Translations under genes and position numbers: made by a program
Source: Bradyrhizobium erythrophlei
GTDB taxonomy: Bacteria > Pseudomonadota > Alphaproteobacteria > Rhizobiales > Xanthobacteraceae
Length of the DNA: 64,000 nt
NCBI RefSeq assembly: GCF_900129505.1
Contig: NZ_LT670818.1
Coordinates: 8,403,001-8,467,000, forward strand
Direction: 5' to 3'
Notes under the pieces: model-generated
Databases searched by the model: none
Seen by the model: only the letters and a program-made list of their open reading frames with translations
Told to the model about the DNA's origin: nothing
Shown here: positions 4,739 through 64,000 of the stretch, piece by piece
Position numbering within the stretch: position 1 is the first letter of the stretch
How the letters are laid out: the number at the start of each line of letters is the position of its first letter

Positions 4739-4772
4739 GGATCGTCTCTTTCTCGGCATTGGCGGTGTGCTC

Positions 4773-4799
4773 CCTCGCCCCGCTCTTCGCGGGGTGAGG
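4773..4799. terminator. Hairpin between convergent GFA and GST genes
   Basis: CCTCGCCCCGC and GCGGGGTGAGG pair over 11 positions (one G-U) around a TCTTC loop. Its place between convergent stop codons suits a bidirectional terminator, but no clear T-tract follows on either strand. It may instead be a copy of a rhizobial repeat. Confidence 0.5.
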
Positions 4800-4821
4800 T
4801 AAAGATTCCGTCGCGCACTGC

Positions 4822-6320: not shown

Positions 6321-6429
6321 TGAAGCGCAGGCCGCGGGCCTATTTTGTCCCGGTGATCCCCCGCTCGAACGACAAAGGCGCCGCGGCATGAACCGCGGCG
6401 CCCTTGCATCATCATCGCTTGACCGGCGA

Positions 6430-7386: not shown

Positions 7387-7552
7387 GTCTGTTTCCCTAA
7401 TTCCCCGGCAGGGGGAAGCGCCCCTAACATGGGCAGTGCTGCCTAAAAGTGAAGCCATGATGGGCAAACCCGGCTGCGGCCCTCGGTCGCGGGGATGCGT
7501 CAATTGGGCAGATTTTCGGGGCGTTTGGGGCCGCCTACGCGCGTAGTGGCAG

Positions 7553-7657
7553 CGTCATTCCGGGGCGATGCGAAAAGCATCGAACTACGATGTGCAATTG
7601 CACATCGGAGAATCTCGAGATTCCGGGTCTGGTGCTTCGCACCATCCCGGAATGACG
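7553..7657. repeat. Compound palindromic repeat downstream of cckA
   Basis: The ends are inverted (CGTCATTCCGGG and CCCGGAATGACG). Inside lie a 20-bp perfect palindrome at 7588-7607 and a GGTGC-TTC-GCACC hairpin at 7631-7643. It looks like a rhizobial multi-hairpin intergenic repeat that would fold in the cckA 3' transcript. Confidence 0.7.
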
Positions 7658-24174: not shown

Positions 24175-24486
24175 ATGCTGATGCGTATCATCGTTGCCTT
24201 CGCGTCCGTTCTGGCATTCGGCACCGGCAGTGGATTTGCCGACGCCTATAAGGCACGCGGGCACCACCACCGCCACGCGGGTGTCGTCCGGGCGGCGCCG
24301 CCGGCCGTTGCGCCGGCGCCATATGACGGCCCAACGCTCGTATTGCATCCTGCCTCAAACATCGCGTGTGATACGCCCTATCGTTCGACGCGGGCACTGC
24401 CGTGCGATCAGCCGGTCTGGGTCTACGGTAGCCCATGCGAGGTGGATCTGAGTCTCGGACGCTCCCGGTCGTGCGACTGGCGTTAG
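24175..24486 (+). CDS. Small secreted Cys-containing protein
   Basis: 103 aa from the ATG at 24175, 13 nt past the GT41 stop. Signal peptide MLMRIIVAFASVLAFGTGSG-FADA, then a short GHHHRH stretch, a Pro/Ala linker, and four cysteines (NIACDTPY, ALPCDQPVWVYGSPCEVDLS, RSCDWR). It is placed between two GT41 genes with short gaps (13 and 29 nt), so it is probably co-transcribed and could be a partner or substrate, but that is only positional inference. No named family recognised. Confidence 0.68.
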   Translation: MLMRIIVAFASVLAFGTGSGFADAYKARGHHHRHAGVVRAAPPAVAPAPYDGPTLVLHPASNIACDTPYRSTRALPCDQPVWVYGSPCEVDLSLGRSRSCDWR

Positions 24487-24515
24487 ACGGCAGCGGTCGT
24501 TTTCGAGATACCGCC

Positions 24516-28324: not shown

Positions 28325-31300
28325 CTATTTCGCCGCGTCAGCCCGCGTCAAACCGATGATCCGCGGCAGCGAGCCGGTGTGGACCGGTTCGGCGCCCTCC
28401 ACGCCCGGCGGCAGCGGCGCGCGCGCGGTCGCGTCCGGGAAGCGCGTCTTCATCTCGCGCAGGAAGCCGTCGAGCGTGTCGACCTTCGCGGCCATCTTGG
28501 CGATCTCCGCGAATTCGGCGCTGTTGGCGCCGGCCGGTTTGCTCGCGGTATCGAAGGCGGCCCGGTCGGCATCGCCGTTCATCAACGGCACATATTTTTC
28601 GCGGAATCGCGCCAGCCCGATGGCATCCTCGGCCAGCGCATATCCGACCACCGCGCGGATCACGTCGCCCTTCTCGGCGGGGCTCAAGGGTCTGAAGTCG
28701 CGCCAGCGGTCGCTGTAGTAGAGTTCGATCTGTTCGGAGGCCTCGCGCCAGCGTCGCGCCGCCCAGTAGATATCGGAGCGCAGCCGGATTGCCTCGCGGC
28801 CGGAAATGTTGGAAATGATGTCGAGCGCGAGGTCGTGGCGTCCGACGTCGCTCTGTGCGCGCGCTTCCAGTAGCAGCCGCTGCTGACGCAATTCGCCCGA
28901 CAGATCGGCAATGCGCGTGGAACGAAGTGCGGTGATCGCGCGATCCGGCTTGCGGTTAGTCAAATAGACCATGGCGAGCCGCGCCGCGACCTGGGCGCGC
29001 GCCGCGCCCTCCAGCCGCTTGTCGACCTGATACTGCAGCAGTTCGCTGGCCTGATCGAGCAAATCGACCGCGACCAGCCGGTCCGCGAGCTTTCGGATCA
29101 TCTCGTCGCCGCGTCGCCCGATCGGCGTCAGATCGCGATTTTCATAGAACATGCCGAGCGCGTCGACCGGCGGAAGATCGTCGCCCTTCGGACTGAGAAA
29201 CAGCTGCGCGAACAGCGCCGACGCAATGTCCTGGCTCTGCCGCGAGGCTTCCGAATTGGACTGCAGCCTGGTCGCGGTCTTGGCCGCCTGGAAGGCTTCG
29301 CCGTAGCGCCCGGTTTCGGCGTAGATGCGCTCCAGCAGCAGCAGCGTCTTCACCTCGATGCCGTCGCCCCGCCACATTGCCTGCAGCGTTTCGAGTTCGC
29401 GCAAGGCGTCGAGCTGGCTGATTTCGTCACGTCTCTGCTTGAGCGCGATCTCGCGCAGCTTGGCCTCGGCCGCAGCGGCGCGGTCCGGCGATTCGACGGC
29501 AGCCCTGTACTGATCCAGCGCATCCTTGTCGTGTCCGAGTCCTTCGGCGAGCCAGCCGCGCAGCACCGCGGTCGCGGGTTTCGCCTCGGGCGCAACGCCG
29601 ATGACATCCAGCTCGCTGCTGCGCTTCGATGCCCCCGGAAAGTCCTTGACCTCGAGCGCCGCGCGCATCGAATCGGTGAGAACGATGCGCTGCAACTCGG
29701 TCGGCAGCGAGGGGATCACCACTTCGGAATTCTTGAATTTCTCCCGCGCGTCCGTCCACTTCTCCTGGCGCGCATAGGCCAGCGCCTTCCACAATTGCGA
29801 ATCGTAATTGCCGCCGACCACTGGGTTGTTGAGGTCCTTTAGCGCCCTATCCGGACGCCCGATCAGGCTGTTGGCGACCGAACGCATGACCAGCGCATTG
29901 GGGTCCTCGAGACCCGCCTTGGCGCCGGAAAGGGCGAGATCGAGCACGCCCTTGGCTTCGTGATACCACGCCCGCGACATGTAGAAGCGGGCGAGATCGA
30001 GGTTCGCCGCAATGCGCCGGTCGGCCTCGGCGGCCCCGGCCGCGGTGATCAGTTCGTCCTCGCGCGCGATGAAATTCCCCTCCTGGCCCTTGCGCCACTC
30101 GATCGGGTCGAAAACCGGACGCGCGGCCGACGTCGCGCGCTGCGCGCCGACCTCGGCCGACGAGAGCGTCAGGCCGCCGGGCCGGCCGAGCAGAACCTTG
30201 TCCGATATGATTTGGGCGGTGACGTCGTCGGAGTTCGGACGAAGCGCGACACCGTGGATGGATTCGAGCAGCGACAGTTCGACGAAATCCTGCCGCTTGA
30301 TGAAGCCGCGAACCGGTGCCCCTGCCGTCACTACGATGATTGTGTCGCCGGCGTCCGGATCGGTGAGCCTGTGCAGCCGGCCGGCCTTGGCAAGCGGCAC
30401 CGTGACATTGGCGAGCGAAGGATCGGCGATGTTGCGGACCGCCACCAAAGGCTGGCTGGGCGTCCGCAGCACGTCGGAAAAATTGAGCGTCCAATTCGCG
30501 CTGCCCGGCTCGTCATCGCTCGTCAGCGAGGGCAGTTGCGGGCGGTTCAAACGAATGCGGATCGCCTGCCCGTTCTCCAGCGCAAATATGCCGACATCCG
30601 ATATGATCGATCCGCCCTTGTTGCGGATCGGCTCGACATCGATCGGTTTTGCGGAATCGAACACCAGCCAGACCGCGTCGGCGCGGCGAAACAGGGCCGC
30701 CGGCGTCGGCGCGGCGAACGAAAAGGTCAGGCTCAGGCCTTCGCTGGTTCGCATTGCCACCACACCGGTCGTGCCCTCGCCGGCCTTGCCCGCCGCAGCA
30801 GGCTTGGTCTCGGCCGCGGGCTCCACGGCGGCGGCTGGCATCTTTTGCCGCGGCGGCTCGGCCAGCGCGGGCGGGGCTTCCTGCGCAGCCTCTTGCCTCG
30901 GCGCTTCGGACTTTGCCGCCTCGGACATCGGCGGCTCGGACGCTGGCGCTTCGGATTTTGACATCTCGGATTTGGGCGGCTCTGCGACCGGCGATGGTGC
31001 CAGCGCTGGCTCGGACCTGACCTCGATATTGGCCTCCTTGGCGATCGCCTCCGAGGTCGGCGGCACGATGGCAGCCGGCCGTCGTGGCGGCGCCGGCGGC
31101 TCGGAGAGCTTCGCCATCGGCACGGCCGGCACCGCCTCGGCGCGAGCCGGCGCGGCATGGCCGGGTGCTGCGGCCTCACGGCCCGCCGGCGCGTGCGAGG
31201 CATCCGCCGCGGGCGAAGGCAGCGCCGCCGGCTTCTGCGGCGCCTGGAAGGCAACGTCGATCACGTAGTTCTTCTCTTCGCGGAAGGAGTGGACATCGAC

Positions 31301-32119
31301 ATCGCCGATCAGCGTCATTTCCACCGCGGTCGCCTCGCCGTCGACCTTCTGATTGATCGAGGCGATGTTCGGCGGCGCTGCCTCCTTGGCATCCGCCAGA
31401 TCGAAAGTCAGCGACGCATTGAACTGCAGCGTCAGCTTCTGATCGTTCAATACCGAGGAGACGCCGACGCCATCCGGCATCTCGAACACGAATCGCACGA
31501 AGGTCGGCTGCACCGAGGTACGCACGCGAACCGGCGGACGCTTCTTGGCCTCCGCCTCGGCGCGCTGCAGGCGAAGCGCGCGCTCGGCGGCGCGGGCGCG
31601 CTCGGCGAGCTCGCGGACCACCTCCTGCGGCAGGCTGGGCGGCGGACCGTCCCAGGAATCGGGCAAGAGATCGACGAATACCCGCTCGCCGGCGGTCATG
31701 GTATTGACGGTCACCCGGCGCGCCAGCGACAGCCGGATCGCCGAACCATCGGGATCGCGCCGTGCGGAATTGACGTAATCGGGCGCATATTCAGGCAACC
31801 GGTCGACCGCAATATCCACCGGCTGGACGAAACGAATGACCAGGATCGAGCCGGCGGTGGTCACATCGGAAGGAACATCTTTGGCGAGTTTCAGGATCAG
31901 CCTGGCGTAGCCCCCGGAAGTGGAAAACGTCGCCTCGCCCTTGACCGCATCGGCGGCGCGGCAGGCGCCGGAAAAGCTCACGCCGACCAGGACCAGCACC
32001 GTCGCGAGCCACGAAACGCGGCGGAGGCGACACTGCGCCGCCCGAGCGCCGGCGCGGGCTTGCGACCAAACTCCAGCGGCAGCCTTTCGCGCCATTCCAA
32101 AGGGTACTTTCAGCTTCAA
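28325..32119 (-). CDS. Large periplasmic AMIN-like/TPR protein of the motility operon
   Basis: 1264 aa. An N-terminal hydrophobic segment (about residues 36-55, ATVLVLVGVSFSGACRA) directs export. Beta-rich AMIN-like segments follow (FSTSGGYARLILKLAKDVPS; VQPTFVRFVFEMPDGVGVSS), then a Pro/Glu/Ser-rich linker with repeated KSEAP-like units, another AMIN-like segment (LSLTFSFAAPTPAALFRRAD) and a long helical TPR-like region from about residue 690 to the end. It lies 80 nt downstream of motE in the fliL-fliM-DUF6468-motE run. AMIN domains bind peptidoglycan or polysaccharide, so a role in anchoring stator or basal body to the wall is plausible, not shown. Confidence 0.75.
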   Translation of the reverse strand: MKLKVPFGMARKAAAGVWSQARAGARAAQCRLRRVSWLATVLVLVGVSFSGACRAADAVKGEATFSTSGGYARLILKLAKDVPSDVTTAGSILVIRFVQPVDIAVDRLPEYAPDYVNSARRDPDGSAIRLSLARRVTVNTMTAGERVFVDLLPDSWDGPPPSLPQEVVRELAERARAAERALRLQRAEAEAKKRPPVRVRTSVQPTFVRFVFEMPDGVGVSSVLNDQKLTLQFNASLTFDLADAKEAAPPNIASINQKVDGEATAVEMTLIGDVDVHSFREEKNYVIDVAFQAPQKPAALPSPAADASHAPAGREAAAPGHAAPARAEAVPAVPMAKLSEPPAPPRRPAAIVPPTSEAIAKEANIEVRSEPALAPSPVAEPPKSEMSKSEAPASEPPMSEAAKSEAPRQEAAQEAPPALAEPPRQKMPAAAVEPAAETKPAAAGKAGEGTTGVVAMRTSEGLSLTFSFAAPTPAALFRRADAVWLVFDSAKPIDVEPIRNKGGSIISDVGIFALENGQAIRIRLNRPQLPSLTSDDEPGSANWTLNFSDVLRTPSQPLVAVRNIADPSLANVTVPLAKAGRLHRLTDPDAGDTIIVVTAGAPVRGFIKRQDFVELSLLESIHGVALRPNSDDVTAQIISDKVLLGRPGGLTLSSAEVGAQRATSAARPVFDPIEWRKGQEGNFIAREDELITAAGAAEADRRIAANLDLARFYMSRAWYHEAKGVLDLALSGAKAGLEDPNALVMRSVANSLIGRPDRALKDLNNPVVGGNYDSQLWKALAYARQEKWTDAREKFKNSEVVIPSLPTELQRIVLTDSMRAALEVKDFPGASKRSSELDVIGVAPEAKPATAVLRGWLAEGLGHDKDALDQYRAAVESPDRAAAAEAKLREIALKQRRDEISQLDALRELETLQAMWRGDGIEVKTLLLLERIYAETGRYGEAFQAAKTATRLQSNSEASRQSQDIASALFAQLFLSPKGDDLPPVDALGMFYENRDLTPIGRRGDEMIRKLADRLVAVDLLDQASELLQYQVDKRLEGAARAQVAARLAMVYLTNRKPDRAITALRSTRIADLSGELRQQRLLLEARAQSDVGRHDLALDIISNISGREAIRLRSDIYWAARRWREASEQIELYYSDRWRDFRPLSPAEKGDVIRAVVGYALAEDAIGLARFREKYVPLMNGDADRAAFDTASKPAGANSAEFAEIAKMAAKVDTLDGFLREMKTRFPDATARAPLPPGVEGAEPVHTGSLPRIIGLTRADAAK

Positions 32120-44418: not shown

Positions 44419-44586
44419 TCGAATATCGCGATTTGAGCTATTAGGTGCTGACCCGTTTGAGCAAGGCTTCAATTGGCTTGTCCCAACCCGGCAGTGTGAT
44501 AAGCTGCTATTGGCGAGTTCAAATTTCTACGGATAGTAGTTGTCCGTCCCTAGCACTGCTGTTTGCGGTGTGTGGAGACCCAGGTC

Positions 44587-46176
44587 ATGGGTGAAATTCG
44601 CAAATTGAAATCGAGCAGAGGTGGCGATCCCCCGCGAGAGTCAACGCCGCGCCGTCTTGCTGCGATTGTCGCCGGCGATATCGCTGGCTACAGCCGCCTC
44701 ATGCAGATCGATGAAGAAGGAACGCATCTTCGCGTTAAGCGGATCGAGCGTGACCTCATAGAGCCCAGCATTGTGGGGCATCACGGAAGGCTCGTCAAAA
44801 CCACTGGTGACGGATTTATTGCGATTTTCGACAGTCCTGTCGAAGCTGTGCGGTGCGGTATCGTCATCCAGCAAAACATGGTTGGACGCAACGCATCGAT
44901 GCCGAAGCATCATTGGATTGAATATCGGATTGGTGTCAATCTTGGCGACGTTATCGTCGAAGCAGACGACGTTTTCGGCGATGGCGTCAATATCGCCACG
45001 CGCCTCGAGGGTATTGCCGATCCTGGCCAGGTTTACATCTCGGGCGGCATTTACGAGCAGATAAAGCACAAGCTGGTTTGCGGATATGAGTCGCTCGGAG
45101 ATCGAAAAGTAAAGAACATCACGGATCCGGTAAGAGTCTACCGTGTGCTTCCGGATCCGGCCGCTTTCAACAGGACCCGAAAACGACGCGAGAATATTCT
45201 GATTTTTTTGCTGAGCCTCGTTCTGCTGTCCATCGCAAGCAGCGCGCTTTGGTATTTGCTTCGGCAACCGTATGGAAAAGCGCGGGATCAGGCATCAACC
45301 CAGGTTTCGCCGTCGCCGGTACCCCTTGCGAAACCATCAGCGCCGCTACCTCAGCCTTCGCCTTCGGCAGCCCCCGCCACTCAGGAAGCAACGCCCCAAA
45401 CTCAGCCGGCTCCTTCGATGGCTCCAGCTGCGAAGCAAGCGACGTCGCAACCCCTGATCGCGTCTCCAGCCGCGCCTGCAACACGGCCGACATCGGCGGT
45501 CCGAGAGCCCGAAATGAACATGCTTCGAGGCGGTAGCTTCCTCATGGGCAGCAATGACGATGTCACGGAGAAGCCGACCCACCAGGTCACGATCAAGCCG
45601 TTTGCGATCAGTCGGTATCCGATTTCCGTGCGCGAATGGAACGAATGCGCTGCCGCGAAGGCATGTGCGTTCGTGGCAACCGGCAAAGATGACGCGCCCG
45701 TCACGAACGTGAGTTGGAGCGATGCCAAGCAATTTGCTGCCTGGCTCGCGGGCGCAACGCGGAAGGCATATCGGCTCCCAAGCGAAGCCGAATGGGAATA
45801 TGCCGCCCGCGGGGGCACGCAAACCAGGTACTGGTGGGGCGACCAGGTTCAATCCGGCATGGCCAACTGCAAGAACTGCAATGACATTGCAACCGCCGAG
45901 CAACCAATCAAGGTCGGAAGTTTTACGCCAAATCCGTTTGGGCTGTATGACATGGGTGGTGGCGTCGATCAGTGGGTAGAGGATTGTTGGCACAAGCATT
46001 ATCAGGGCGCCCCGTCGGACGGGTCACCGTGGGTCGAGAGCGACTGCACTTCGCATGTCATTCGGTCTGGGTCCTGGAAGAATGACGCGCGCTATGCGCG
46101 GCCGGCGAACCGCGATAGTTACGACACCAACGTTCGATATCCGACACACGGGTTGCGGATCGCTCTATCTCCTTAA
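44587..46176 (+). CDS. Class III adenylate/guanylate cyclase fused to a SUMF1-like domain
   Basis: 529 aa from the ATG at 44587 (a TTG at 44563 is also in frame). The cyclase domain (about 22-185) has the two metal-binding aspartates D31 (VAGDIAGYSRLM) and D75 (TTGDGFIAIFDSP) and YRIGVNLGDVIVEADDVFGD. A membrane helix (about 203-225) follows, then a Pro/Ala/Gln-rich linker. The C-terminal SUMF1/FGE-like domain (about 312-529) has LRGGSFLMGSNDD, YRLPSEAEWEYAARGG and IRSGSWKNDARYARPANRD. FGE catalytic cysteines are absent at the usual place, so it is probably a binding or sensing domain. Likely a transmembrane sensor making cAMP or cGMP. Confidence 0.88.
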   Translation: MGEIRKLKSSRGGDPPRESTPRRLAAIVAGDIAGYSRLMQIDEEGTHLRVKRIERDLIEPSIVGHHGRLVKTTGDGFIAIFDSPVEAVRCGIVIQQNMVGRNASMPKHHWIEYRIGVNLGDVIVEADDVFGDGVNIATRLEGIADPGQVYISGGIYEQIKHKLVCGYESLGDRKVKNITDPVRVYRVLPDPAAFNRTRKRRENILIFLLSLVLLSIASSALWYLLRQPYGKARDQASTQVSPSPVPLAKPSAPLPQPSPSAAPATQEATPQTQPAPSMAPAAKQATSQPLIASPAAPATRPTSAVREPEMNMLRGGSFLMGSNDDVTEKPTHQVTIKPFAISRYPISVREWNECAAAKACAFVATGKDDAPVTNVSWSDAKQFAAWLAGATRKAYRLPSEAEWEYAARGGTQTRYWWGDQVQSGMANCKNCNDIATAEQPIKVGSFTPNPFGLYDMGGGVDQWVEDCWHKHYQGAPSDGSPWVESDCTSHVIRSGSWKNDARYARPANRDSYDTNVRYPTHGLRIALSP

Positions 46177-53243: not shown

Positions 53244-54797
53244 TCAGCGCAGCAGCTGCAGCACGCTCTGTTGCGACTGGTTGGCCAGCGCCAGCGCGGA
53301 CACCGCGATCGACTGGCGGGTCGACAGCGCCTGACTGTTGGCTGCTTCCTCGTTGGTGTCGGCCAACGTCAGGTTGGCCGAGCCGGTCTGCAGCACGTTG
53401 ATCAGGTTCTTGGAGAAGTCCTGGCGAATCTGCACGATCGACAGGTTGGAACCCAGCGAAGATGCTTCGGAGCGCAGCGAGGTGCTGGCGGCATTCAGCG
53501 AAGTGAGAACGTTGTTGGCCGAATTACTGTCCAGGAAATCAGTGCCCGCGGTGAGGGTCGCCAAACCTAGGCCGGCGAGATTGTAGGTGACGCCGTTGAT
53601 GTTCAAAGTCGACTTTCCGGTCTCGTTGAACGTCAGTTTCAAGGTGTCGCCGTTTAACAGGTTGATGCCGTTGAACGAAGCGTCCTGCGACGTGGTGTTG
53701 ATCTGATTGAGGACGTTGTTGTACTGCGCGACCAGGCCGGCGCGTGTTGCCTGCGAGTCCGGATCGGCGACCGGCGCGGGTGGGACCAGCCCGTTGAACG
53801 CCGCACCGGCGCCTGTGGCAGTGCCGGTGATCGCGCCGATCTTCGAGGAAGCCGCATCGTTTGTGGTCACGATGTTGATGACGCCGCTCGGGCTGATGCC
53901 GGCCTGCAGATTGTTGGCCGCCAGCACCGCATTGAGCTGGTTGAGCGTCGAGATTTGTCCGGAACCGGTGCCGAAGATGATGCTGGTTCCGTTGCCGTTG
54001 GCGGGCGGCGTGGGGCCGATGATGAGCGTCTGACCGCTGAGCGCGGGAGGGGTAATAGCCGTTTGGCCGGCCGTAAGACCGAGCTTCCCCAGCGTGGTCG
54101 CATTGCCGCCGATAAGCAGATTCGTCGTGGTGCCGGTGCTTAGGGTGAGCGCGCCGGCCGTGAGTGTCGAGGGGGTGCCTGTACCGGTGATGGTGTCAAT
54201 GGCCGAAAGCAAGTCGCCCACCGTCGCGGTGCTCAGGTCGAGCGACGCGCCGGTCGCGGTGATCGAATTGCCGTTGGTGCTGCTAAACGAGATCGTGCTG
54301 CCGTTGATCGTGAAGCTGTCCGTGGCGGCTGAAACGGCGGGAGTCAACGCGCTCAGCTTCGTGGTCTTCGCGGCCGCGCCCGTAATGGCCGTGCCGGTGA
54401 CGGTGTTGTTGGTTCCCGTGCCAAGCAGATTGGTTGGTGTTGCGCCGGGGATCGGCGCACTCGAAACATTGGACCTCGGCGTATAGCCGACGGTCGTCTG
54501 CAGCACCTGGCTGGCGATCGACTTGGCGCTGTCGACCAGCTTTTGCAGCGAGGTGATGCCGGTGTTGGCGGCCTGCAGGACCTGAACGCCATTGCCGATG
54601 CTGTCGAGCAGGTTGTTGATGTCGCTGGCGCGGTTGTCGAGGCCCTGCGCGGTGAAGAAGTTGGTCGGATTGTCGAGCGCCGTGTTGACCTTCTTGCCAC
54701 TGGCGAGACGGCCTTGGGTGGTGGCGAGGAGATCTGCGGTGGACTGCAGCGAGAGCAGGTTCTGGCGAACCGCTGCCGTGAGAACAATGCCGGACAT
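53244..54797 (-). CDS. fliC: Flagellin (copy with CtrA box array)
   Basis: 517 aa. The N-terminal D0/D1 part (LTAAVRQNLLSLQSTADLLA, TTQGRLASGKKVNTALDNPT) and C-terminal part (SNLSIVQIRQDFSKNLINVL, QTGSANLTLADTNEEAANSQ, then LLR) are nearly the same as in the neighbour flagellin. The middle (about 130-360) is Thr/Ser/Gly-rich and differs; it contains one copy of a module also repeated in FlgL (TINGSTISF...LLSAIDTITGTGTP). No cysteines are apparent. Preceded by five TTAA half-sites. Confidence 0.96.
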   Translation of the reverse strand: MSGIVLTAAVRQNLLSLQSTADLLATTQGRLASGKKVNTALDNPTNFFTAQGLDNRASDINNLLDSIGNGVQVLQAANTGITSLQKLVDSAKSIASQVLQTTVGYTPRSNVSSAPIPGATPTNLLGTGTNNTVTGTAITGAAAKTTKLSALTPAVSAATDSFTINGSTISFSSTNGNSITATGASLDLSTATVGDLLSAIDTITGTGTPSTLTAGALTLSTGTTTNLLIGGNATTLGKLGLTAGQTAITPPALSGQTLIIGPTPPANGNGTSIIFGTGSGQISTLNQLNAVLAANNLQAGISPSGVINIVTTNDAASSKIGAITGTATGAGAAFNGLVPPAPVADPDSQATRAGLVAQYNNVLNQINTTSQDASFNGINLLNGDTLKLTFNETGKSTLNINGVTYNLAGLGLATLTAGTDFLDSNSANNVLTSLNAASTSLRSEASSLGSNLSIVQIRQDFSKNLINVLQTGSANLTLADTNEEAANSQALSTRQSIAVSALALANQSQQSVLQLLR

Positions 54798-55003: not shown

Positions 55004-56539
55004 TCAGCGCAGGAGCTGCAGCACGCTCTGTTGCGACTGGTTGGCCAGCGACAGCGCGGACACCGCGATCGACTGGCGGGTCGACAGCGCCTGGCTGTTG
55101 GCCGCTTCCTCGTTGGTATCGGCCAGCGTCAGGTTGGACGAGCCGGTCTGCAGCACGTTGATCAGGTTCTTGTTGAAGTCCTGGCGGATCTGCACGACCG
55201 ACAGGTTCGAACCCAGCGTGGATGCTTCGGACCGCAGCGTGGTGCTGGCAGAGTTCAGCGCGGTCAACGCCTTGTTGGCCGAACTGTTGTCCAGGAAGTC
55301 GGTGCCCTGGGTCAGGTTCGAAAGACCAAGGCCGCCGAGGTTGAAGGTGACGCCGGTGATGCTCAGCGTCGACTTTCCGGTTTCGTTGAACGTCAGCTTC
55401 AGGGTATCGCCGTTCAACAGGTTGACGCCGTTGAACGAAGCGTCCTGGGCCGTGGTGTTGATCTGGTTCACCACGTTGTTGTACTGCGCGACCAGGCTGT
55501 TCCGGGTCGCCTGCGAGTTCGGATCGACAACCGGCGCAGCAGGGGCTACTGCACTCGTGAACGCAGTGGCCGTGCCGCCGATGGTGCCGATCGTCGACGA
55601 AGCCGCATCGTTGGTGGTCACGATGTTGATCCTGCCGGTGGTGTCGATGCTGGCCTGCAGGTTGTTCGCCGCCAGCGCAGCATTGAGCCCGTTGAGCGTC
55701 GAGACCTGCCCGGCACCGGTACCGAAGCTGATATTGGTCGCAGTGCCGCCGCCGGTGGCAGCGATCGTGAGCGTCTCATTGGTCAGCGCGGGGTTCGTTC
55801 CGGTGTTGGTTCCGACAGCGACTCCGGTCGTGCCGGTCGCACCGCCAGCTATGACCTCGGCGGTGGTTGTGACGCTGGAGGTCACACCCGTTGTGCCCGA
55901 AGTGAACACCAACTTGCCGGCGGAAACCGAAGCGATGGTGGACCCGAACTGGTAGTTGGTGATGCTGGCAACATCAGATGCGCTCAGGCTGTTAGCGTTG
56001 AGTGCACTACCGGTTGCCGCGTTGTACGCCGTAACATTTGCCGAGTTGAGCGTGATGGTCTTGGCCGCAGCACCATCGACCGCGACCGTGAAGGTCGAGG
56101 AGCCCGCACCCAAATTGAGGGTCGTGAAGGCACCGGCGGTAACCGAACCAGCAGTGCCCGGGCCCAGCAGATTGGTCGCGGTCGCGCCGGTGATCGCGGT
56201 GGACGTAAAATTGGACTTGGTCGAATAGCCAACGGGGGTCTGCAGCACCTGGTTGGCGATCGACTTGGCGGTATCGACCAGGCTCTGCAGCGAGGTGATG
56301 CCGGTATTGGCGGCCTGCAGGATCTGCACGCCGTTGCCGATGCTGTCGAGCAGGTTGCTGATGTCGCCGGCGCGGTTGTCGAGGCCAGCCGCGGTGAAGT
56401 AGTTGGTGGGGTTGTCGAGGGCAGAGTTGACCTTCTTGCCACTGGCGAGACGGCCCTGGGTGGTGGAGAGAAGATCCGCGGTCGACTGGAGGGAGAGGAG
56501 GTTCTGGCGAACCGAAGCCGAAAGAACAATACCTGACAT
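55004..56539 (-). CDS. fliC: Flagellin (second copy)
   Basis: 511 aa. Conserved ends (LSASVRQNLLSLQSTADLLS, TTQGRLASGKKVNSALDNPT; C-terminal LADTNEEAANSQALSTRQSI ending LQLLR) almost match the neighbour; the middle (about 115-340) is a different Thr/Ala/Gly-rich surface domain (GAGSSTFTVAVDGAAAKTIT). The pattern of alike ends and unlike middle is typical of flagellin paralogues that diverged at the exposed face. It lacks a CtrA array upstream, so it may be controlled differently from the other copy. Confidence 0.96.
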   Translation of the reverse strand: MSGIVLSASVRQNLLSLQSTADLLSTTQGRLASGKKVNSALDNPTNYFTAAGLDNRAGDISNLLDSIGNGVQILQAANTGITSLQSLVDTAKSIANQVLQTPVGYSTKSNFTSTAITGATATNLLGPGTAGSVTAGAFTTLNLGAGSSTFTVAVDGAAAKTITLNSANVTAYNAATGSALNANSLSASDVASITNYQFGSTIASVSAGKLVFTSGTTGVTSSVTTTAEVIAGGATGTTGVAVGTNTGTNPALTNETLTIAATGGGTATNISFGTGAGQVSTLNGLNAALAANNLQASIDTTGRINIVTTNDAASSTIGTIGGTATAFTSAVAPAAPVVDPNSQATRNSLVAQYNNVVNQINTTAQDASFNGVNLLNGDTLKLTFNETGKSTLSITGVTFNLGGLGLSNLTQGTDFLDNSSANKALTALNSASTTLRSEASTLGSNLSVVQIRQDFNKNLINVLQTGSSNLTLADTNEEAANSQALSTRQSIAVSALSLANQSQQSVLQLLR

Positions 56540-56701: not shown

Positions 56702-56885
56702 TCACGCACTCGAAAAATAGAATTGAAAATGCTGGATATTTTCTCGCCGATGGGCGCGTTTACCGGGCGTTAACCACAATAGGAAAGGATTGCGGCTGCA
56801 TCGGCAAAAGAGCCGCGCCCATCTGGCGTCACTCGCATCGGCTTGTACCGATGGATCGCGTCAGAAGCGGCAACGGAGACCAGCC

Positions 56886-57308
56886 ATGGCTTTGAAAGTC
56901 GAACTCAAACCGCACGAACGCATCATCATCGGCGCCTGCGTGATCACCAACACCGATCAGCGCGCGCGGCTATTGATCGACGGCGACAACATTCCGATCC
57001 TGCGCGAGAAGGACATCCTGACGCCGGAGACCGCCGACACGCCGGCCAAGCTCGTCTATCTGGCGGTGCAGCTGATGTATATTTCGCCGGATCCGCAGGT
57101 CAATCACGGCACCTATTTCAACCTGGTGCGCGACATCGTTACCGCGGCGCCCAGCGCGTGGCCGATCATCGAGGAAATCAACACGGACATCTTGAGCGGC
57201 GAATTATATCATGCGTTGAAAGCGGCCAGGAAACTCGTCGCCTACGAGAAGACGCTGCTGGACCTCAATCGCAGTCACAACGCCGAAGCGGAACGGCACT
57301 CCGCCTGA
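56886..57308 (+). CDS. flbT: Flagellin translation regulator FlbT
   Basis: 140 aa from the ATG at 56886; an earlier in-frame start at 56790 adds a basic leader absent from the family. LKVELKPHERIIIGACVITN, DGDNIPILREKDILTPETAD and VYLAVQLMYISPDPQVNHGT are FlbT hallmarks. FlbT binds the flagellin mRNA leader and lowers its stability in Caulobacter, so elements in the flagellin 5' regions are natural targets. It converges on the PLP decarboxylase gene after 6 nt. Confidence 0.94.
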   Translation: MALKVELKPHERIIIGACVITNTDQRARLLIDGDNIPILREKDILTPETADTPAKLVYLAVQLMYISPDPQVNHGTYFNLVRDIVTAAPSAWPIIEEINTDILSGELYHALKAARKLVAYEKTLLDLNRSHNAEAERHSA

Positions 57309-57314
57309 GCACCG

Positions 57315-58862
57315 CTACATCGCCAGCGGCGGCGACTGCTCGACCTGCAGCACGCGGTCGTCACGCGAAGACGATCGCTGCGCTCCAAACTCCAGTACCG
57401 CCGAGATCAGCGCGTCGATGTCGCCGACATCGGTGCGATGATTGACGATCGCCGCGCGGATCGCGAGCTCGCCGCCGAGCAGCGTGGTGGACGGCACCGC
57501 GACGCCCGACTCCTGGATGTCGATGACGATGTCGCCGTTCACCTCGTTGGCTTCCGGCGCGCGATAGCGAAAGCACACGATATTGAGCTGCACCGGCGCC
57601 ATCAGCTCCAGCTGCGGCTCGGCCAGGATCCGCGCTTCCAGATATCGGGCAAGCGCGCAGGTGCGCGCGATCACCGCGCCCAGCTTCTCGGTGCCGTAGG
57701 CCTTCAGCGTGAACCAGGTCTTGAGCGCCCTGAACCCCCGCGACAGATCGGGACCGAGATCGCAGGGCCAGGGCGAGTTCGCGGCGAGCCCGCGGATTTC
57801 CCGGCGCAGATACGCCGCCGGCGCGGCAAAGGCGTCGCGGTGCCGAACGCCATCGCGGACGAGCAGGAAGCCGGCGTCATAGGGAACCTGTCCCCATTTG
57901 TGAAAATCGAGCGCGATCGAATCGGCGCCTTCGATTCCCGCCAGCCGCGGCGCCAACTCCGGCGAGAGAATTCCGAGCGCGCCAAAGGCGCCGTCGACGT
58001 GAAACCAGAGTCCCTCTTCGCGGCACAGCGCGCTCAATGCGGCGAGATCGTCGATGGCGCCGATATCCACCGTGCCGGCGGAGCCGACGACGAGGAACGG
58101 TTTGAGACCGGCCCAGCGGTCCAGCGCGATCTTCGCGCGTAGTGCTTCGACGTCGATGCGGTGATATCGATCGACCTGGACGCAATGTAACGCATCGCTG
58201 CCGAAGCCGGCGATATCCATCGCCTTGCTGATGCAGCCATGCGACGCCGTCGAAGCGTAAGCCGTCAACACTGCGCCGTCGCCGCCGAGGCCGTGGTGGC
58301 GCACCGATCGTCCGAGCGCGGCCGTGCGCGCCACCAGCACGGCCATCAGATTGGCCATCGACGTGCCGGTGACGAAAATTCCGCTGGCGCTGTCGGGGAA
58401 ACCGAACATCTGGCGCGTCCATTCGACGATCTGGCGCTCGACCTCGATCGGCATGTGATCGCGACCGCCGAGATTGGCATTGAGTCCGGCCGCCAGCATT
58501 TCCGCCAGCATGCCGACCGCGCTGCCGCCGCCATGCACCCATCCCATGAAGCCCGGATGAACATTGCCGGTCGCATAGGGAACGATGAAGTCGGTGAACT
58601 CCCGATAGACTTCGCCGAGATCGGAAGCAGCCCGCGGAAGTGCGGTGTGAAACCGCGCGCGAACTCCGTCCGGTATCGGTTGCCAGACCGGGCGTTCCCT
58701 GATGTCGGCGACGTAGTCGATCATGTCATCGAGCATGCGATGACCGAGCGCGCGGATGTCGTCCCAATCCTTCGGGTCGAGCGTCTCGCTCGGGGTAGGT
58801 TTCGGATCGAGCGTCCCGCTCGATTTGGATTGCGGCGGCGCCTCGCGCAACAATTCGGTCAC
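57315..58862 (-). CDS. Group II PLP-dependent amino-acid decarboxylase
   Basis: 515 aa, in the size range of aromatic-amino-acid/glutamate decarboxylases. The PLP lysine is K322 (IALDFHKWGQVPYDAGFLLV), with ring-stacking H208 (YASTASHGCISKAM) and D290 (LWFHVDGAFG). The N-terminal region NVHPGFMGWVHGGGSAVGML is typical of this group. It probably makes an amine from an amino acid; which one cannot be told. The N-terminal tail has a doubled TLDPK motif. Its ATG overlaps the stop of the ATP-grasp gene by 4 nt, so the two are coupled. It ends the island next to flbT. Confidence 0.88.
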   Translation of the reverse strand: MTELLREAPPQSKSSGTLDPKPTPSETLDPKDWDDIRALGHRMLDDMIDYVADIRERPVWQPIPDGVRARFHTALPRAASDLGEVYREFTDFIVPYATGNVHPGFMGWVHGGGSAVGMLAEMLAAGLNANLGGRDHMPIEVERQIVEWTRQMFGFPDSASGIFVTGTSMANLMAVLVARTAALGRSVRHHGLGGDGAVLTAYASTASHGCISKAMDIAGFGSDALHCVQVDRYHRIDVEALRAKIALDRWAGLKPFLVVGSAGTVDIGAIDDLAALSALCREEGLWFHVDGAFGALGILSPELAPRLAGIEGADSIALDFHKWGQVPYDAGFLLVRDGVRHRDAFAAPAAYLRREIRGLAANSPWPCDLGPDLSRGFRALKTWFTLKAYGTEKLGAVIARTCALARYLEARILAEPQLELMAPVQLNIVCFRYRAPEANEVNGDIVIDIQESGVAVPSTTLLGGELAIRAAIVNHRTDVGDIDALISAVLEFGAQRSSSRDDRVLQVEQSPPLAM

Positions 58863-60100
58863 GCCGCGCGCTCCCGTCCCTCCCGCGCGCGATGCATCAG
58901 CATCGCCGCGAATGCCTCGAAGATCTTGCGCATTTGCGGAGGCTTGTAGGGAAACAGTTCGGGCGAATCCATGTTGTGCACGACCGCGGTGTTGTCCGCC
59001 TCGAAGATCAAGAGATCCCCGAACTTGTTCTCCGCGCAGTCGATCGTGAAATAGTCGAGGCCGATTCGTTCGGCCATGCCGGCGAGCGCAGTGGCATGGC
59101 GGCGGGCGAAGCCGAAGTCGAAGGTGCGCATGAATGTCTCTTCCTCGAGACGCTTGGACGCGCTGTCGGACATTCCGGCGTTGAGATACCAGATGTCCCA
59201 GCGGTCGGCGATCGCCATGTGGCAGGCGTAAGGCTTGCCAGCGACGAATACGACGCGATACTTGCGAAACAGCCCGTCTTCATTGGCGTAGTCGACGAAG
59301 CGAGAAACGAAGAATTCCTGCTCGGTGCGCTCGGCGAGATATCGGCCGATCGCGGCACGATCGTCGATCTTGGCGAGCCCGACGCCGGCATGCGAACCGC
59401 GCGGCCGGACGATGAGGGGAAACGCAAGCTCGGCCGCGATGTACGCGGGCGAAAGATTTTCCTGAGCCACATCCGCCAATTGCGCCGACGTCGCGCATAT
59501 CGTCGCCGGAATGTCCAGCCCCACGACGCCTTGCAGCAGACGATGCAATTTGTCACGATCGAGGTGACAGACAAGACGCGGAGCATTCAGCATCGGCCGC
59601 GGCCAGCGCGGCGCCATCTCATCGATGATGCGAAGCGCCTCGTGGCATTCGTCGCTGTCGGAAGCGATCACGATCGCAACGTCATGATCGGGCAGTGGCA
59701 AGTCGATGCCCGGCATGACGTAGAGCGTCTTCAGCTCGATGCCGGATTCTTCCAGCAGGAACTCGATCGGCGTATTGCCGCCCATGTCGATTGCGGCCGC
59801 GAGCGCGAGCACGCGCAGTCTCGGCGGCTCGGCCGAGCATGGCGAGCGAAACAATTGATGGAAGCCGAGCACTTCCGCCTGAATGGACAGGCCTGTCGCT
59901 TTTTCGCCGAGCAGTTGCGCAATCAGCGAGAGATCGAGCCCCTCGCCCGGACCGGCCGTTCCGCCGACCACTTTCGCAATCAATTCGTCGCGCAACGGAC
60001 GCAGATCGACACCGTTGAACGCCATCGCGGTCAGTTTGGCAAATCCGATTCGATCCGCGCAGAACGGCTCGGCTTTGGCTTGATCAGAATCGGGCAGCAT
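58859..60100 (-). CDS. ATP-grasp ligase-like protein
   Basis: 413 aa. The N-terminal half (about 1-180) is not recognised. The C-terminal ATP-grasp domain (about 185-400) has AELAFPLIVRPRGSHAGVGL (lysine replaced by Arg, then the Gly-rich loop), EFFVSRFVDYANEDGLFRKY, and DLLIFEADNTAVVHNMDSPE with the Mg-binding Glu/Asn pair. ATP-grasp enzymes join a carboxylate to an amine or thiol via an acyl-phosphate. With a decarboxylase gene overlapping its end and a GT-A gene upstream, it may join an amine product to something else; that is inference. Confidence 0.78.
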   Translation of the reverse strand: MLPDSDQAKAEPFCADRIGFAKLTAMAFNGVDLRPLRDELIAKVVGGTAGPGEGLDLSLIAQLLGEKATGLSIQAEVLGFHQLFRSPCSAEPPRLRVLALAAAIDMGGNTPIEFLLEESGIELKTLYVMPGIDLPLPDHDVAIVIASDSDECHEALRIIDEMAPRWPRPMLNAPRLVCHLDRDKLHRLLQGVVGLDIPATICATSAQLADVAQENLSPAYIAAELAFPLIVRPRGSHAGVGLAKIDDRAAIGRYLAERTEQEFFVSRFVDYANEDGLFRKYRVVFVAGKPYACHMAIADRWDIWYLNAGMSDSASKRLEEETFMRTFDFGFARRHATALAGMAERIGLDYFTIDCAENKFGDLLIFEADNTAVVHNMDSPELFPYKPPQMRKIFEAFAAMLMHRAREGRERAA

Positions 60101-60183
60101 ATGAAAACTCCGGACATGACGTGCAAAGGGGATGACCGCGCCACGGCGGCGGACGCAGCACGGCGCTCAGTGCCGGCGCGGAT

Positions 60184-60975
60184 TCAAGCGGCATTCGCGG
60201 CTCTCGCCGGCGCGCTTGCGGCCGCGGCAAATTGCGAGGAGACATCGCCCTGAAACACCGACGGGCCGACATGATCGAGGCGGCTTTCGAGATCGGCCCA
60301 GATTTCGCCACCGATATCGGTCCAGCGTTTGCAGAAGGCGAAATCCTCGCTGAGATAGGTGCCGGTGGCGTGGTCGATCATGCAATCGAACAGCGCAAAG
60401 CGATTGGGACTTCCGGCGAGCGCATCGAGCGAATGTTCGCGGAAGAACTGCAGCGCTGCGTAGTCGGGATGCTGGCACATTTTTTCCAGCACTCGGCGCT
60501 GGATCATCAGGAAGCCGGTTCCCGCGTAGCGCACACGCGTAAATCCGCTGACGGCGACGACATGGTCGGGATCGTCGATCTCCAGCACGTAGTCGAGCTC
60601 GCCCCCCGGAGTTGCCGGTCGGTCGGACTGCAGCATCCGCCTCGCCTTGTTCCAGTTGACCCGCTTGATGGGATAGACACCGGCCACGACATCCGCTCCC
60701 GATTCGATCAACCGAAAAACCTGGTCGGGCGTGAAACCGATGTCCGCATCCACAAACAAAAGATGGGTCGCGGTGGGGTCGTCGAGAAAAAGCGTGACCA
60801 GGTTCGCTCGCGCCCTCGTAATCAGCGCGTCGCCGTCGCGCAGCGTGACCGAGAGGTCGAGATTGGACTTGGCACGAACCGCCCGCTGCAGCTGGAAGAT
60901 GGAGCCGGCATAGATGCTGGAGACCTGCCCGCCGAAGCAGGGCGTCGCCACCACGAGGTGAATTTGGTCGGTCAT
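60184..60975 (-). CDS. GT-A-fold glycosyltransferase-like protein
   Basis: 263 aa. The N-terminal Rossmann start (IHLVVATPCFGGQVSSIYAG), a DGDALITRARANLVTLFLDD helix and the DxD-type motif HLLFVDADIGFTPDQVFRL indicate a GT-A nucleotide-sugar fold. The rest (GVYPIKRVNWNKARRM; VRYAGTGFLMIQRRVLEKM; ATGTYLSEDFAFCKRWTDIG) fits a family found beside flagellar or glycosylation genes. Donor and acceptor unknown. The start is 62 nt from a near-match CtrA box. A gap of 83 nt leads to the ATP-grasp gene. Confidence 0.75.
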   Translation of the reverse strand: MTDQIHLVVATPCFGGQVSSIYAGSIFQLQRAVRAKSNLDLSVTLRDGDALITRARANLVTLFLDDPTATHLLFVDADIGFTPDQVFRLIESGADVVAGVYPIKRVNWNKARRMLQSDRPATPGGELDYVLEIDDPDHVVAVSGFTRVRYAGTGFLMIQRRVLEKMCQHPDYAALQFFREHSLDALAGSPNRFALFDCMIDHATGTYLSEDFAFCKRWTDIGGEIWADLESRLDHVGPSVFQGDVSSQFAAAASAPARAANAA

Positions 60976-61036
60976 GATCGGCTCCGAAACGGCAAGGCGG
61001 CAGCCCTGATTGTCACCAAACAGTAAATAGACGTGG

Positions 61037-61051
61037 TTAACGAATACCTAA
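61037..61051 (-). promoter_or_regulatory. Near-match CtrA box upstream of the GT-A gene
   Basis: Read toward the gene: TTAG-GTATTCG-TTAAC, one mismatch from TTAA-N7-TTAAC including the final C, 62-76 nt upstream of the ATG at 60975. It sits in the 99-nt gap between the PLP-enzyme gene and the GT-A gene, so the last three genes of the island may have their own start site. Confidence 0.5.
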
Positions 61052-61074
61052 CGCGCCGGGCCGCAATTCCACGG

Positions 61075-62763
61075 TCAGGCCGGCGACAGCGCGCCCCGGG
61101 ATGGTTCGGCCGACGGCAGAACGCCCAGATGTGCCAGCAACCACTCGATCTTCGAGACGACCGCGCCGACGCGACCCAGTTCACGCCGCACATTGGCGGC
61201 CGCGGTTTCCCCGTCCGGCGACCACGCCTCGGTGACGAGACGTGCGCCCGCGCAGATACGCAGCGCGGCGACGGGATGCGCGGTGGCTTCCCCCAACGCG
61301 ACGGGTTGGCCGACCAGGCAGGGCTGCGCGGCGATCTGCTGCTCGCGGCCGCTCTCGTTCACGGCAATGGCGTCGCCTGCATTCCGGGAGAGCGCCCGAT
61401 GGATCTTCCTGCAATCGGCGAGCGATAGCGCGCGGCCTTCGTGCCGGATCACAAACGGAAAGATCGTCGGCTGAGCCAGTTCCTCATCGTCAACGCCGCC
61501 GTCTTGCGGCGTCGCTTGCAGCGTCTCTTGGGGCGGCAGCAGGTGAAGCGATCGCGACGACGCGATGATCTGCTTCACCCCCTGCCCGAATGTCGTCAGA
61601 GCCAAGCTGCGAAATTCGTCCGGCACGCTGTAGTATGACCGGATTTCCGCGAGCGCGGCTTCCCAGCGAAGCCACTGGCCGAAATTTGCCCTGACCGGAA
61701 AGCGCGCGCGCAGCGCCGGCCAACTGCTCGGCCAGTCGCCACGGCTGCTATATTCATAGAGTCCCGGCGCAATCCGCGGGACTGCATCGAGAACCCCGGA
61801 GAAGCCCGCGGGCACCAGCAGCGCGCCGCTGAAGGCAGGCCCGGTGAAGAACTTCGAGCCCGTGACAATCACGATGCAACCGCGGTCGAGATATTTTCGC
61901 AGCCGCGGCCGGCCAAGGCGCATTTGGCAGGCATCGACAACGATTTGCACCCGGTCGGGCCAGCGGCGCCTGATTTCGTCGAGGCATTGTTCGCTCGGCG
62001 CCCGCCAGCCGAGCTTGGACGAATCCATGATTTGAAGAAGCACGCCGCTTCCATCGGCAAGCGATTTTTCGACCGCGCTGAGAACCCGTGAATCGCTGTC
62101 GGCTTGCGGGCGGCAATGGCCGGTCGCGTCGAACAATGGGAGCGCAACGCTGGTCACGGAATGAGCGAGCCCGGCGACAGGCTCTCCCTTTCGAACCCGG
62201 CTTCCGCTCGCCGTCGCGGTGCTGAAATGACGCCCTCGCGCGGTATCGCCGGTTCCGCTTCCGGTTTGATCGGCAGCCACAATGACCGTCGTCAACGCCG
62301 GACCGAGCACCGCCCGCGTCAGGAACAGCGCCTGAAGCTGCGAGTCGGTGCCTGACGGGGAAAAGACGACCTCGACGCCGGACCGGGACAGCCCGAAATG
62401 ATCCTTCAATTCACCGCGCATCGCTTCGATACGTGCGTCGAGCGCTTGCTCGATCCCGACGGCAATCGCGGACCGCATCAGCGATTCCCGCGCATCGCTC
62501 GCGCGCGCGTAAGCCCGCTCGGAAATCGATGTCGCGGTGCTCGAAGCAAAGCTCAGCGTGCCCGGGCAAGGCAGAGGCCGGCAGCCATATTGGTTCAACC
62601 CGCTCGCGGGATCGATGCTCAGTCGCGGATCGCCGCCGCCGCCAAGCAGACGGTCCAGCGGCAGGAACATTTCGGCCATGGCGGAAGATGATCGGGAGCG
62701 GCCGGAGGCCGGCTCCCAGGTCGCATGACGTCGAACGCCGCCGTCTGACATGACTTGCCCCAT
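61075..62763 (-). CDS. Fold-type I PLP enzyme of unknown reaction
   Basis: 562 aa from the ATG at 62763 (ATGs at 62751 and 62679 are also possible). PLP features are the phosphate cup VFSPSGTDSQLQ (about 133-144), D277 (VQIVVDACQMRLG) and the Schiff-base lysine K304 (VIVTGSKFFTGPAFSGALLV). The lysine context is kynureninase/cysteine-desulfurase-like, but the family is not one I can name. The gene starts 60 nt after the flgL stop, so it may be co-transcribed with flgL. Confidence 0.72.
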   Translation of the reverse strand: MGQVMSDGGVRRHATWEPASGRSRSSSAMAEMFLPLDRLLGGGGDPRLSIDPASGLNQYGCRPLPCPGTLSFASSTATSISERAYARASDARESLMRSAIAVGIEQALDARIEAMRGELKDHFGLSRSGVEVVFSPSGTDSQLQALFLTRAVLGPALTTVIVAADQTGSGTGDTARGRHFSTATASGSRVRKGEPVAGLAHSVTSVALPLFDATGHCRPQADSDSRVLSAVEKSLADGSGVLLQIMDSSKLGWRAPSEQCLDEIRRRWPDRVQIVVDACQMRLGRPRLRKYLDRGCIVIVTGSKFFTGPAFSGALLVPAGFSGVLDAVPRIAPGLYEYSSRGDWPSSWPALRARFPVRANFGQWLRWEAALAEIRSYYSVPDEFRSLALTTFGQGVKQIIASSRSLHLLPPQETLQATPQDGGVDDEELAQPTIFPFVIRHEGRALSLADCRKIHRALSRNAGDAIAVNESGREQQIAAQPCLVGQPVALGEATAHPVAALRICAGARLVTEAWSPDGETAAANVRRELGRVGAVVSKIEWLLAHLGVLPSAEPSRGALSPA

Positions 62764-62823: not shown

Positions 62824-64000
62824 CTAGCCGACCGGAAGATACTTCGTCAGCGTCAGCTGAGAGAGCATCGACGTCGTCTGGTAGGACGCCTGCAGGCTGG
62901 TCTGAAGCGCCAGGATCTCGCTGGCTACCTGATCGGTAGAGACGGTTTCCGCCTGGTCGATGATGTTCTGCAGCATCGCCTTGGATTGCGTCTGCCGCGC
63001 GCCGGCGTCTTTCATGGTCGCCTGCGCGGTGGCCAGATCGGCCTGAATATCCTGAATGGTCTGCTGCCCCGTCTGCGGCTCGAGATTCTGCGTCACCCGC
63101 TGACTGAGTGCCTGGACCTGCAAGGCGCCGTTCGGATTCGTCGGCGAGGTCGTGACCGCGGCGAAAACCGCGAGATTTTGCAGCTGCGTCCGAATGGCCT
63201 GCTCGTTGGCGCGAATGCCGAATTGCACCGTCACCGACTGATCGATGCGCGAGGTCGCCGTTGCGCGGGCCGATCCGGGACCGGACTCGCCGGTGTACCA
63301 GGTGACGGTATTCGCGGGCGTGCCCGCGACCTGCGACGTCGCAGTACCAAGTGGGGAGCCGGCGACCCGCAGCGGCGGCAGTGCCGCGTTCGCGGCGCCG
63401 AGGCCCAGCGCCCCGAACGCGGCCGCGTTCGAACTCGTGACGGCCAGGCTCGTGCCGGTGCTGCTCTTCAGCGTAATCGCGCCGCCGCTGACGGTCGACG
63501 CGGCCGTGGTGCCGGTGAGCGCATCGATTTTCGAAAGCAGCGTCTGGACGTTATCGGTGACGTTGATCTGCTGGTTGCCGCTCGCGCCGGAGGCGAGGAA
63601 GGTAATGGTGGTGCCGTTGACGGTGATGGTATCGCCAAGCGCGAAACTGGCGCCAAGCGAGTTCGTGCCCGCAGCACCGGACAACGTCGTCGTGCCGCTG
63701 ATGGGCACAGGGCTCGCAGCCTTGTTATCGACGATGCTTCCTGCGACCTGCAGCGGCGGCAACGTCACCGACGGAGGCGTGCTGAAGCCAAGCGCCGCGA
63801 ACGCGGCCGCATTCGTAGTCGTGACGTTCAGGCTCGAGCCGGCGTTGCTGCGCAACGCGATCGCGCCGCCATTGACGGTCGACGGGATCGTGGTTCCGGT
63901 GATCGAATCGATTTTCGAGAGCAGCGTCTGGACACTGTCGGTGAGATTGAGCTGGTTACCGGTCGCGCCGGAGGCGACAAAGGTGATGGGCGTGCCGTTG
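62824..64000 (-). CDS. flgL: Hook-filament junction protein FlgL (3' part, cut by window end)
   Basis: 391 codons are inside the window; the reading frame stays open to the window end, so the start is outside. The C-terminus (ANEQAIRTQLQNLAVFAAVT; IQDIQADLATAQATMKDAGA; ILALQTSLQASYQTTSMLSQ) fits rhizobial FlgL, which joins hook-associated FlgK to the filament. Upstream of WYTGE are at least two copies of a module of about 127 residues (NG-TxITF-ASGA-GNQ...LLSKID..TGTT) like the flagellin hook IN motif. Apparent starts inside the module (such as 63855) are not real. Confidence 0.9.
   Translation of the reverse strand, partial: NGTPITFVASGATGNQLNLTDSVQTLLSKIDSITGTTIPSTVNGGAIALRSNAGSSLNVTTTNAAAFAALGFSTPPSVTLPPLQVAGSIVDNKAASPVPISGTTTLSGAAGTNSLGASFALGDTITVNGTTITFLASGASGNQQINVTDNVQTLLSKIDALTGTTAASTVSGGAITLKSSTGTSLAVTSSNAAAFGALGLGAANAALPPLRVAGSPLGTATSQVAGTPANTVTWYTGESGPGSARATATSRIDQSVTVQFGIRANEQAIRTQLQNLAVFAAVTTSPTNPNGALQVQALSQRVTQNLEPQTGQQTIQDIQADLATAQATMKDAGARQTQSKAMLQNIIDQAETVSTDQVASEILALQTSLQASYQTTSMLSQLTLTKYLPVG

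Follow-up and report, generated by a model that had tools for sequence, protein, structure and literature searches.

Four genes inside a flagellar cluster

The flagellar gene cluster of Bradyrhizobium erythrophlei raises the question of what an amino-acid decarboxylase, an ATP-grasp protein, a putative glycosyltransferase and a second pyridoxal phosphate (PLP) protein might do for a flagellum. We analysed a 64,000-nucleotide stretch (the window; contig NZ_LT670818.1, positions 8,403,001 to 8,467,000) of this genome, which is a single 9.18 Mb contig. Between flgL and flbT the window holds four intact minus-strand open reading frames (ORFs), called here PLP1, GT, GRASP and DEC. The original prediction, drawn from the letters of the window, read them as a pathway that builds an amine- or amide-bearing decoration, perhaps on flagellin, and this interpretation is partly supported overall. 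In our judgement the island is probably a CtrA-linked filament-modification locus of the Bradyrhizobium flagellum, and the modification probably bears an amide. Within the genus there is good support for the flagellar link, whereas the chemistry is inferred from the predicted enzymes.

ORF calling confirmed the order and spacing of the genes, and their neighbour was verified as flbT (PF07378, E value 2.4e-41). PLP1 (61075..62763, 562 aa) is followed by GT (60184..60975, 263 aa), GRASP (58859..60100, 413 aa) and DEC (57315..58862, 515 aa), and the GRASP and DEC reading frames overlap by 4 nt, as first observed. Each of the four genes shows purifying selection, the ratio of nonsynonymous to synonymous substitution (dN/dS) being 0.09-0.25 in three genome pairs. 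Mirror-tree correlations (r 0.58-0.74, 0/5000 permutations) were also obtained and are not relied on, since they are confounded by shared species history. Among the matches listed, those with an organism name come from Bradyrhizobium.

Conservation of the island within Bradyrhizobium

In a sample of 146 genomes of the genus, GRASP was found in 95 (E<=1e-90) and FlbT in 144. In 87 of the 95, GRASP is found no more than 5 kb from an flbT among the matches listed, and in 83 of these 87 the spacing is 1.57-1.80 kb, approximately the length of the DEC gene. Of the remaining eight genomes, seven have no flbT position among the matches listed and one, G736, has flbT on another contig; six of the eight were read, and flbT adjoins the island in all six. 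This gives 93 of the 95 carriers in which GRASP adjoins flbT; the other two are G694 and G736.

Thirty islands were read, comprising the window, nine earlier loci and twenty picked to include odd cases, and they are therefore not a random sample. GRASP, DEC and flbT are present in all 30, flgL in 28, GT in 26 and PLP1 in 23. Both flgL exceptions are special cases: one locus (L153) stops at a contig end, and in the other (L152), where no flgL was seen, the island is rearranged such that flbT is on the same strand and flagellins adjoin GRASP. In two islands (L157 and L158) DEC and flbT are separated by a flagellin. PLP1 precedes GT in the window and in L160 and follows it in most other islands. 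GRASP is present twice in five genomes of the genus, four of which were read (L114, L115, L155 and L156). Five islands contain a gene resembling a glycosyltransferase with tetratricopeptide repeats (TPR-GT), accompanied by PLP1 in one of them, and three islands have neither TPR-GT nor PLP1; the TPR-GT label comes from a profile made from three of the five, with Pfam matches for L116 only (TPRs and a weak PF01075 match, 7.6e-7). The four genes were originally taken as one set, and this holds for GRASP and DEC, which form the core; PLP1 and GT vary, and the island is not one indivisible set.

Such variation (among the 30, some islands have a second GRASP copy or have lost genes, one has a split GRASP and one is rearranged) is what would be expected if the gap between flgL and flbT were simply permissive and collected unrelated genes without flagellar function. 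We give this explanation hardly any weight: GRASP and DEC are never found apart in these islands, dN/dS is low, the islands retain a CtrA-type box, and members of these families are met again at flagellar sites elsewhere.

A CtrA-type box upstream of GT

The box noted originally as a near match to a CtrA site, TTAGGTATTCGTTAAC (61036..61051, minus strand), lies 76 nt before the GT start and differs at one position from the motif scored, TTAAN7TTAAC, which we take to be the CtrA site; binding by CtrA in Bradyrhizobium is predicted. Only 38 of 20,000 base shuffles of the same upstream stretch match as well, and across the window there are 42 matches with at most two mismatches versus 25.8 expected, a number reached in 1 of 100 shuffles. 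The box is present before GT in all 25 testable islands (L153 ends too soon for the test), at -64 to -93 nt, with no mismatches in 15 and one in 10, and it stays with GT in both orders of PLP1 and GT. These 25 boxes are not 25 independent events, because the island sequences are related. In the window, no match with fewer than four mismatches occurs in the 150 nt before PLP1, GRASP or DEC. The island thus has both a conserved place in the flagellar cluster and a shared regulatory box, the two features sought in a flagellin-modification island. In Caulobacter, CtrA is reported to bind the promoters of flmG, flmA and neuB (PMC7591256).

Two flagellin genes on the minus strand are the likely substrates. 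In the 150 nt before flagellin 2 (53244..54797, 517 aa) there is a CtrA-type match free of mismatches; upstream of flagellin 1 (55004..56539, 511 aa; PF00669 over the cut-off) there is no match with fewer than three mismatches. Both are separated from the island only by flbT (56880..57308), which is on the plus strand and convergent with the island. On the other side lies the C-terminal part of flgL (62824..64000, minus strand), which runs off the window and gives weak flagellar matches (NF004669, 3.9e-10; TIGR02550, 0.0016); it is followed beyond the window edge by flgK (PF22638, 2e-38; L053). This arrangement allows for modification of another surface structure or of a hook-associated protein (FlgK, FlgL or the cap) in place of flagellin, as the same-strand neighbour of the island is flgL and not a flagellin; moreover, the island lies beyond flgE in Candidatus Raskinella and beside fliD in another genome (G321). 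The closeness of the flagellins in the window, together with a GT relative 3.5 kb from flagellins in a further genome (G391), makes this alternative improbable.

Elsewhere in the window, one ORF (44563-46176) combines a guanylate-cyclase domain with a sulfatase-modifying-factor domain, and a 1264-aa ORF upstream of the flagellar genes (28325-32119) has no Pfam match over the cut-off.

The four predicted proteins

DEC is a group II PLP amino-acid decarboxylase by family, as originally proposed. It matches PF00282 (8.8e-62) at 209.4 bits versus a curated cut-off of 27, 4obu and DOPA-type decarboxylases are among its closest relatives of solved structure, and K322, the PLP lysine first recognized by motif, is invariant along with D290 and H208 in ten aligned DEC proteins. 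For the substrate class every listed NCBIfam cut-off is missed (for example, DABA decarboxylase, 184 versus 900 bits).

GRASP appears to be a RimK/LysX-like ATP-grasp protein with a TPR-like N-terminus. The single protein gives weak ATP-grasp matches (D-Ala ligase, 0.005; rimK_fam, 0.0067) and does not reach a Pfam cut-off, and the assignment was borne out by the family profile (46 rows), which matches the RimK-type ligase structure 3vpd (5.2e-7) at positions 168-311. The same profile matches OGT-type TPRs at positions 22-98, a signal supplied in part by nine longer relatives in the alignment, several of them TPR-rich; the island GRASP alone has a short TPR-like stretch and no Pfam TPR match. 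R232, K280, R282, D354 and E367 are invariant in 46 of 46 aligned proteins and are presumably ATP- and Mg-binding, likely catalytic residues, judging from the ATP-grasp fold. The window genome encodes three longer ATP-grasp paralogues far from the island (L046, 8935-10686 and 10805-12352; L047, 9175-10890), two of which are divergent neighbours with TPRs by Pfam.

PLP1 seems to represent a fold-type I PLP family that is undescribed and for which Pfam has no model. Its lysine K304, the other PLP lysine singled out at first, is shared by all 11 PLP1 proteins of one alignment, and SGT 137-139, D277 and K304 are invariant in 34 of 34; no relevant Pfam family was matched among these 34 members. No family profile match to class V aminotransferases or cysteine desulfurases was obtained: a cysteine-desulfurase model meets one of the 34 members at 0.0013, and PLP1 matches 1t3i at only 0.14. 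GT is a putative GT-A glycosyltransferase, assigned by its DxD motif and by one relative named Glycosyltransferase by UniRef. The motif reads FVDADIGF in the window and F(V/I)DADIGF in 12 of 12 sequences, and GT has no match in Pfam or the PDB; like GT, the window proteins GRASP and PLP1 match no Pfam family. Two further genes with TPR and GT41 (OGT-like) domains, at 21663-24161 and 24435-26744 of the window, 31-33 kb from the island, may encode extra protein glycosyltransferases.

Relatives outside the genus

Thirty-five distinct loci outside Bradyrhizobium were scanned in six frames. Several are from close relatives (five are Rhizobium-type, for example), and one further locus, L055, repeats L041. 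The loci were picked for holding GRASP or PLP1, so the counts are not an unbiased census. In 16 of the 35, DEC, GRASP and PLP1 lie close together as a cassette (L042, L043, L056, L057, L058-L062, L102, L106, L109, L111, L112, L113 and L117). Looser arrangements are also seen: PLP1-DEC with a distant-type GRASP 3 kb away (L050), DEC and GRASP on opposite strands (L041), PLP1-DEC adjoining a different ATP-grasp protein (L103 and L104) and PLP1 adjoining PF14397 (L100). PLP1 has no recognised partner in five loci (L101, L105, L107, L108 and L110), and GRASP has none in nine (L039, L040, L044, L045, L049, L051, L052, L063 and L064); an ATP-grasp neighbour of some kind is found in 20 of the 25 PLP1 loci. 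Beside DEC-PLP1 in L104 is a 944-aa protein (4739-7573) that combines an acylphosphatase domain with two ATP-grasp regions, and in L039 (9844-12860) the lone GRASP relative adjoins a TPR-sulfotransferase, another TPR-bearing modifying enzyme. A tyrosyl-tRNA-synthetase-like gene directly follows PLP1 in L106 and L111, which belong to one family; it may be housekeeping, and the tyrosine chemistry at which it hints was set aside.

Some of these relatives, in unrelated lineages, are in flagellar surroundings. In Candidatus Raskinella, a genome with PF00669, genes like those for flagellin, flbT, flgL, flgK and flgE (the last named by its place and weak similarity) lie beside DEC and GRASP. In a Nitrosomonadales metagenome-assembled genome (L056), FliF, FliG and YcgR (PF07317) genes surround the cassette together with another GRASP relative that is TPR-rich. 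FlaG and FliD genes are just upstream in G321, with a flagellin approximately 5 kb away on the same contig; GRASP is about 5 kb from FliG in G104, and PLP1 is 9.7 kb from a flagellin in G563. A sixth case, PLP1 at 14 kb from a flagellin in G238, was not counted, as three nearer genes tested proved not to be flagellar. A rough binomial estimate (6e-4 for five flagellar contexts among 18 lineages, with a rate of 4% assumed) is not relied on because it is post hoc and the number of lineages is nearer 19.

Relatives of GT were found in 12 of 190 genomes of the class, its own included, and twelve regions were read from ten of the eleven others. Flagellar genes are present in two regions, from two other families: in L132 (G391) GT is beside TPR-GT, upstream of FliD and the flagellins mentioned above, and in L134 (G588) it follows flgE- and flgK-like genes. 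Three of the eleven genomes lack a flagellin, so the GT relatives are not exclusively flagellar. In one of these (L139) the neighbours of the GT relative are very long ORFs of 1925 and 1065 aa, a context suggesting that GT relatives may serve other surface proteins.

Flagellin itself was found in 29 of 30 carrier genomes tested (23/24 and 6/6), the sole miss being a genome that is 68% complete. As the base rate in the phylum sample is 330 of 398 genomes, this co-occurrence is weak evidence and was dropped as proof. The original prediction would sit badly with homologues found mostly far from flagella in non-motile genomes, and here the picture is mixed: outside the genus the cassette is mostly away from flagellar genes in the stretches read, yet nearly all of the carriers tested have flagellin.

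Several observations weigh against a flagellar role. Flagellin is in 24 of 25 PLP1 genomes versus the phylum rate (Fisher p=0.051). GRASP is absent at the threshold used from 51 of the 146 Bradyrhizobium genomes, and since FlbT is almost universal there, GRASP is dispensed with by many members that have flagella. In one of the 30 islands GRASP is split into two pieces in different frames (L161, 3298-4328), and no sugar-biosynthesis genes were called in the ten gene-called islands. Most loci outside the genus (Rhizobium, f81, f90, f24 and others) have no flagellar gene identified in the stretches read, in which not every gene was tested. Among these, a Rhizobium locus (L059) adjoins a phosphoethanolamine-transferase-like gene, two of three f56 loci adjoin RNase E, and an f81 locus (L112) adjoins chemoreceptor, transporter (EamA) and mutS genes, the transporter fitting a secreted small molecule. 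The flagellar link as first proposed stands within the genus and in a few other lineages, but not for most cassettes elsewhere in the stretches read.

These contexts bear on a different explanation, namely that the cassette makes a diffusible amide metabolite (a signal, osmolyte or chelator) that is merely co-expressed with motility in Bradyrhizobium and leaves the filament unmodified. Along with the scarcity of flagellar neighbours outside the genus and the EamA gene, an ABC transporter beside L102 speaks for it, as does the precedent of MfnA and MfnD, a decarboxylase and an ATP-grasp ligase that yield a small-molecule amide (PMC8141765). It does not readily account for the adjacency to flbT in 93 of 95 genomes, the TPR-like N-terminus of GRASP, the GT and TPR-GT partners or the repeated flagellar contexts in other lineages, and gene calling in ten islands turned up no transporter. 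We consider it unlikely, though the least unlikely of the three alternatives to filament modification.

A proposed route to a modified filament

An amine- or amide-bearing decoration would be the most economical reading of the enzymes. A plausible scenario is that DEC produces an amine by decarboxylation of an amino acid, and that GRASP, having activated a carboxylate as an acyl phosphate, couples it to this amine through an amide bond; that the amine is the DEC product is suggested by the constant pairing of DEC with GRASP in the islands. The TPR-like N-terminus would guide GRASP to flagellin, as the TPR domain of FlmG does in Caulobacter. PLP1 might make or trim a second precursor, and a sugar could be supplied by GT, with TPR-GT in some relatives. 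The site of the amide would be either the glycan of flagellin or, by direct attachment prior to export, an acidic side chain. An amide-bearing filament modification is favoured because of the DEC-GRASP pairing, the TPR-like N-terminus, TPR-GT in five islands and the precedent of SfmE in Shewanella.

That precedent qualifies the statement that these genes have no known flagellar role, which holds for the gene set but not for the ATP-grasp class. Loss of the ATP-grasp protein SfmE is reported to shift flagellin mass in Shewanella (PMC3765264), so ATP-grasp proteins do have a precedent in flagellin modification. SfmE (412 aa) is likened to GRASP by class, and its partners in sfmABCDE differ, being the PseI-like SfmA, a predicted reductase and a predicted methyltransferase, with no PLP enzyme named in that text. 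The type B flagellin-modification locus of C. difficile (PMC5207246) also includes an ATP-grasp protein (PF13535); the genes named with it are FemAB-like, ornithine-cyclodeaminase-like and FdtB-like, with no decarboxylase among them.

FlmG-type cytoplasmic glycosylation in Caulobacter (PMC7591256) is similar in its TPR-guided enzyme (the FlmG TPR domain is reported to bind flagellins), its CtrA-linked promoters and its alphaproteobacterial flagellum, and some relatives of the island have the TPR-glycosyltransferase-like gene, a likeness judged by domains. The island differs in that no pseudaminic-acid genes were seen in the gene-called islands and in its addition of a decarboxylase, an ATP-grasp protein and a PLP enzyme. 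In methanofuran synthesis (PMC8141765) a PF00282-type decarboxylase, MfnA, likewise feeds an amine to a ligase, MfnD, but the product is a coenzyme and not a filament, and no tyramine-ligase family was listed for GRASP. Methanofuran-type synthesis was rejected, as DEC scores 84 bits against MfnA TIGR03812 with a cut-off of 299.4. A literature search by title and abstract, with most subscription papers outside its reach, returned no paper describing this gene set. Glycosylation of Bradyrhizobium flagellin is only suggested in a review passage (PMC8429497), and the words decarboxylase and glycos- are absent from the main text of PMC6406911.

A broader and more tentative possibility, which we hold with clearly less confidence than filament modification in Bradyrhizobium, is that the cassette represents a new class of filament modification, in which a TPR-guided ATP-grasp ligase couples a DEC-made amine as an amide directly onto flagellin or its glycan, helped by the undescribed PLP family. 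The three-gene cassette may then have been recruited to flagella several times and have other surface or secreted targets elsewhere. This analysis outlines both the DEC-GRASP-PLP1 cassette, which has no name so far, and a PLP family that Pfam does not model. If the proposed role is correct, the filament of a major soil and symbiotic genus would carry an amine- or amide-bearing group that changes its surface charge, and perhaps its recognition by plants or phages.

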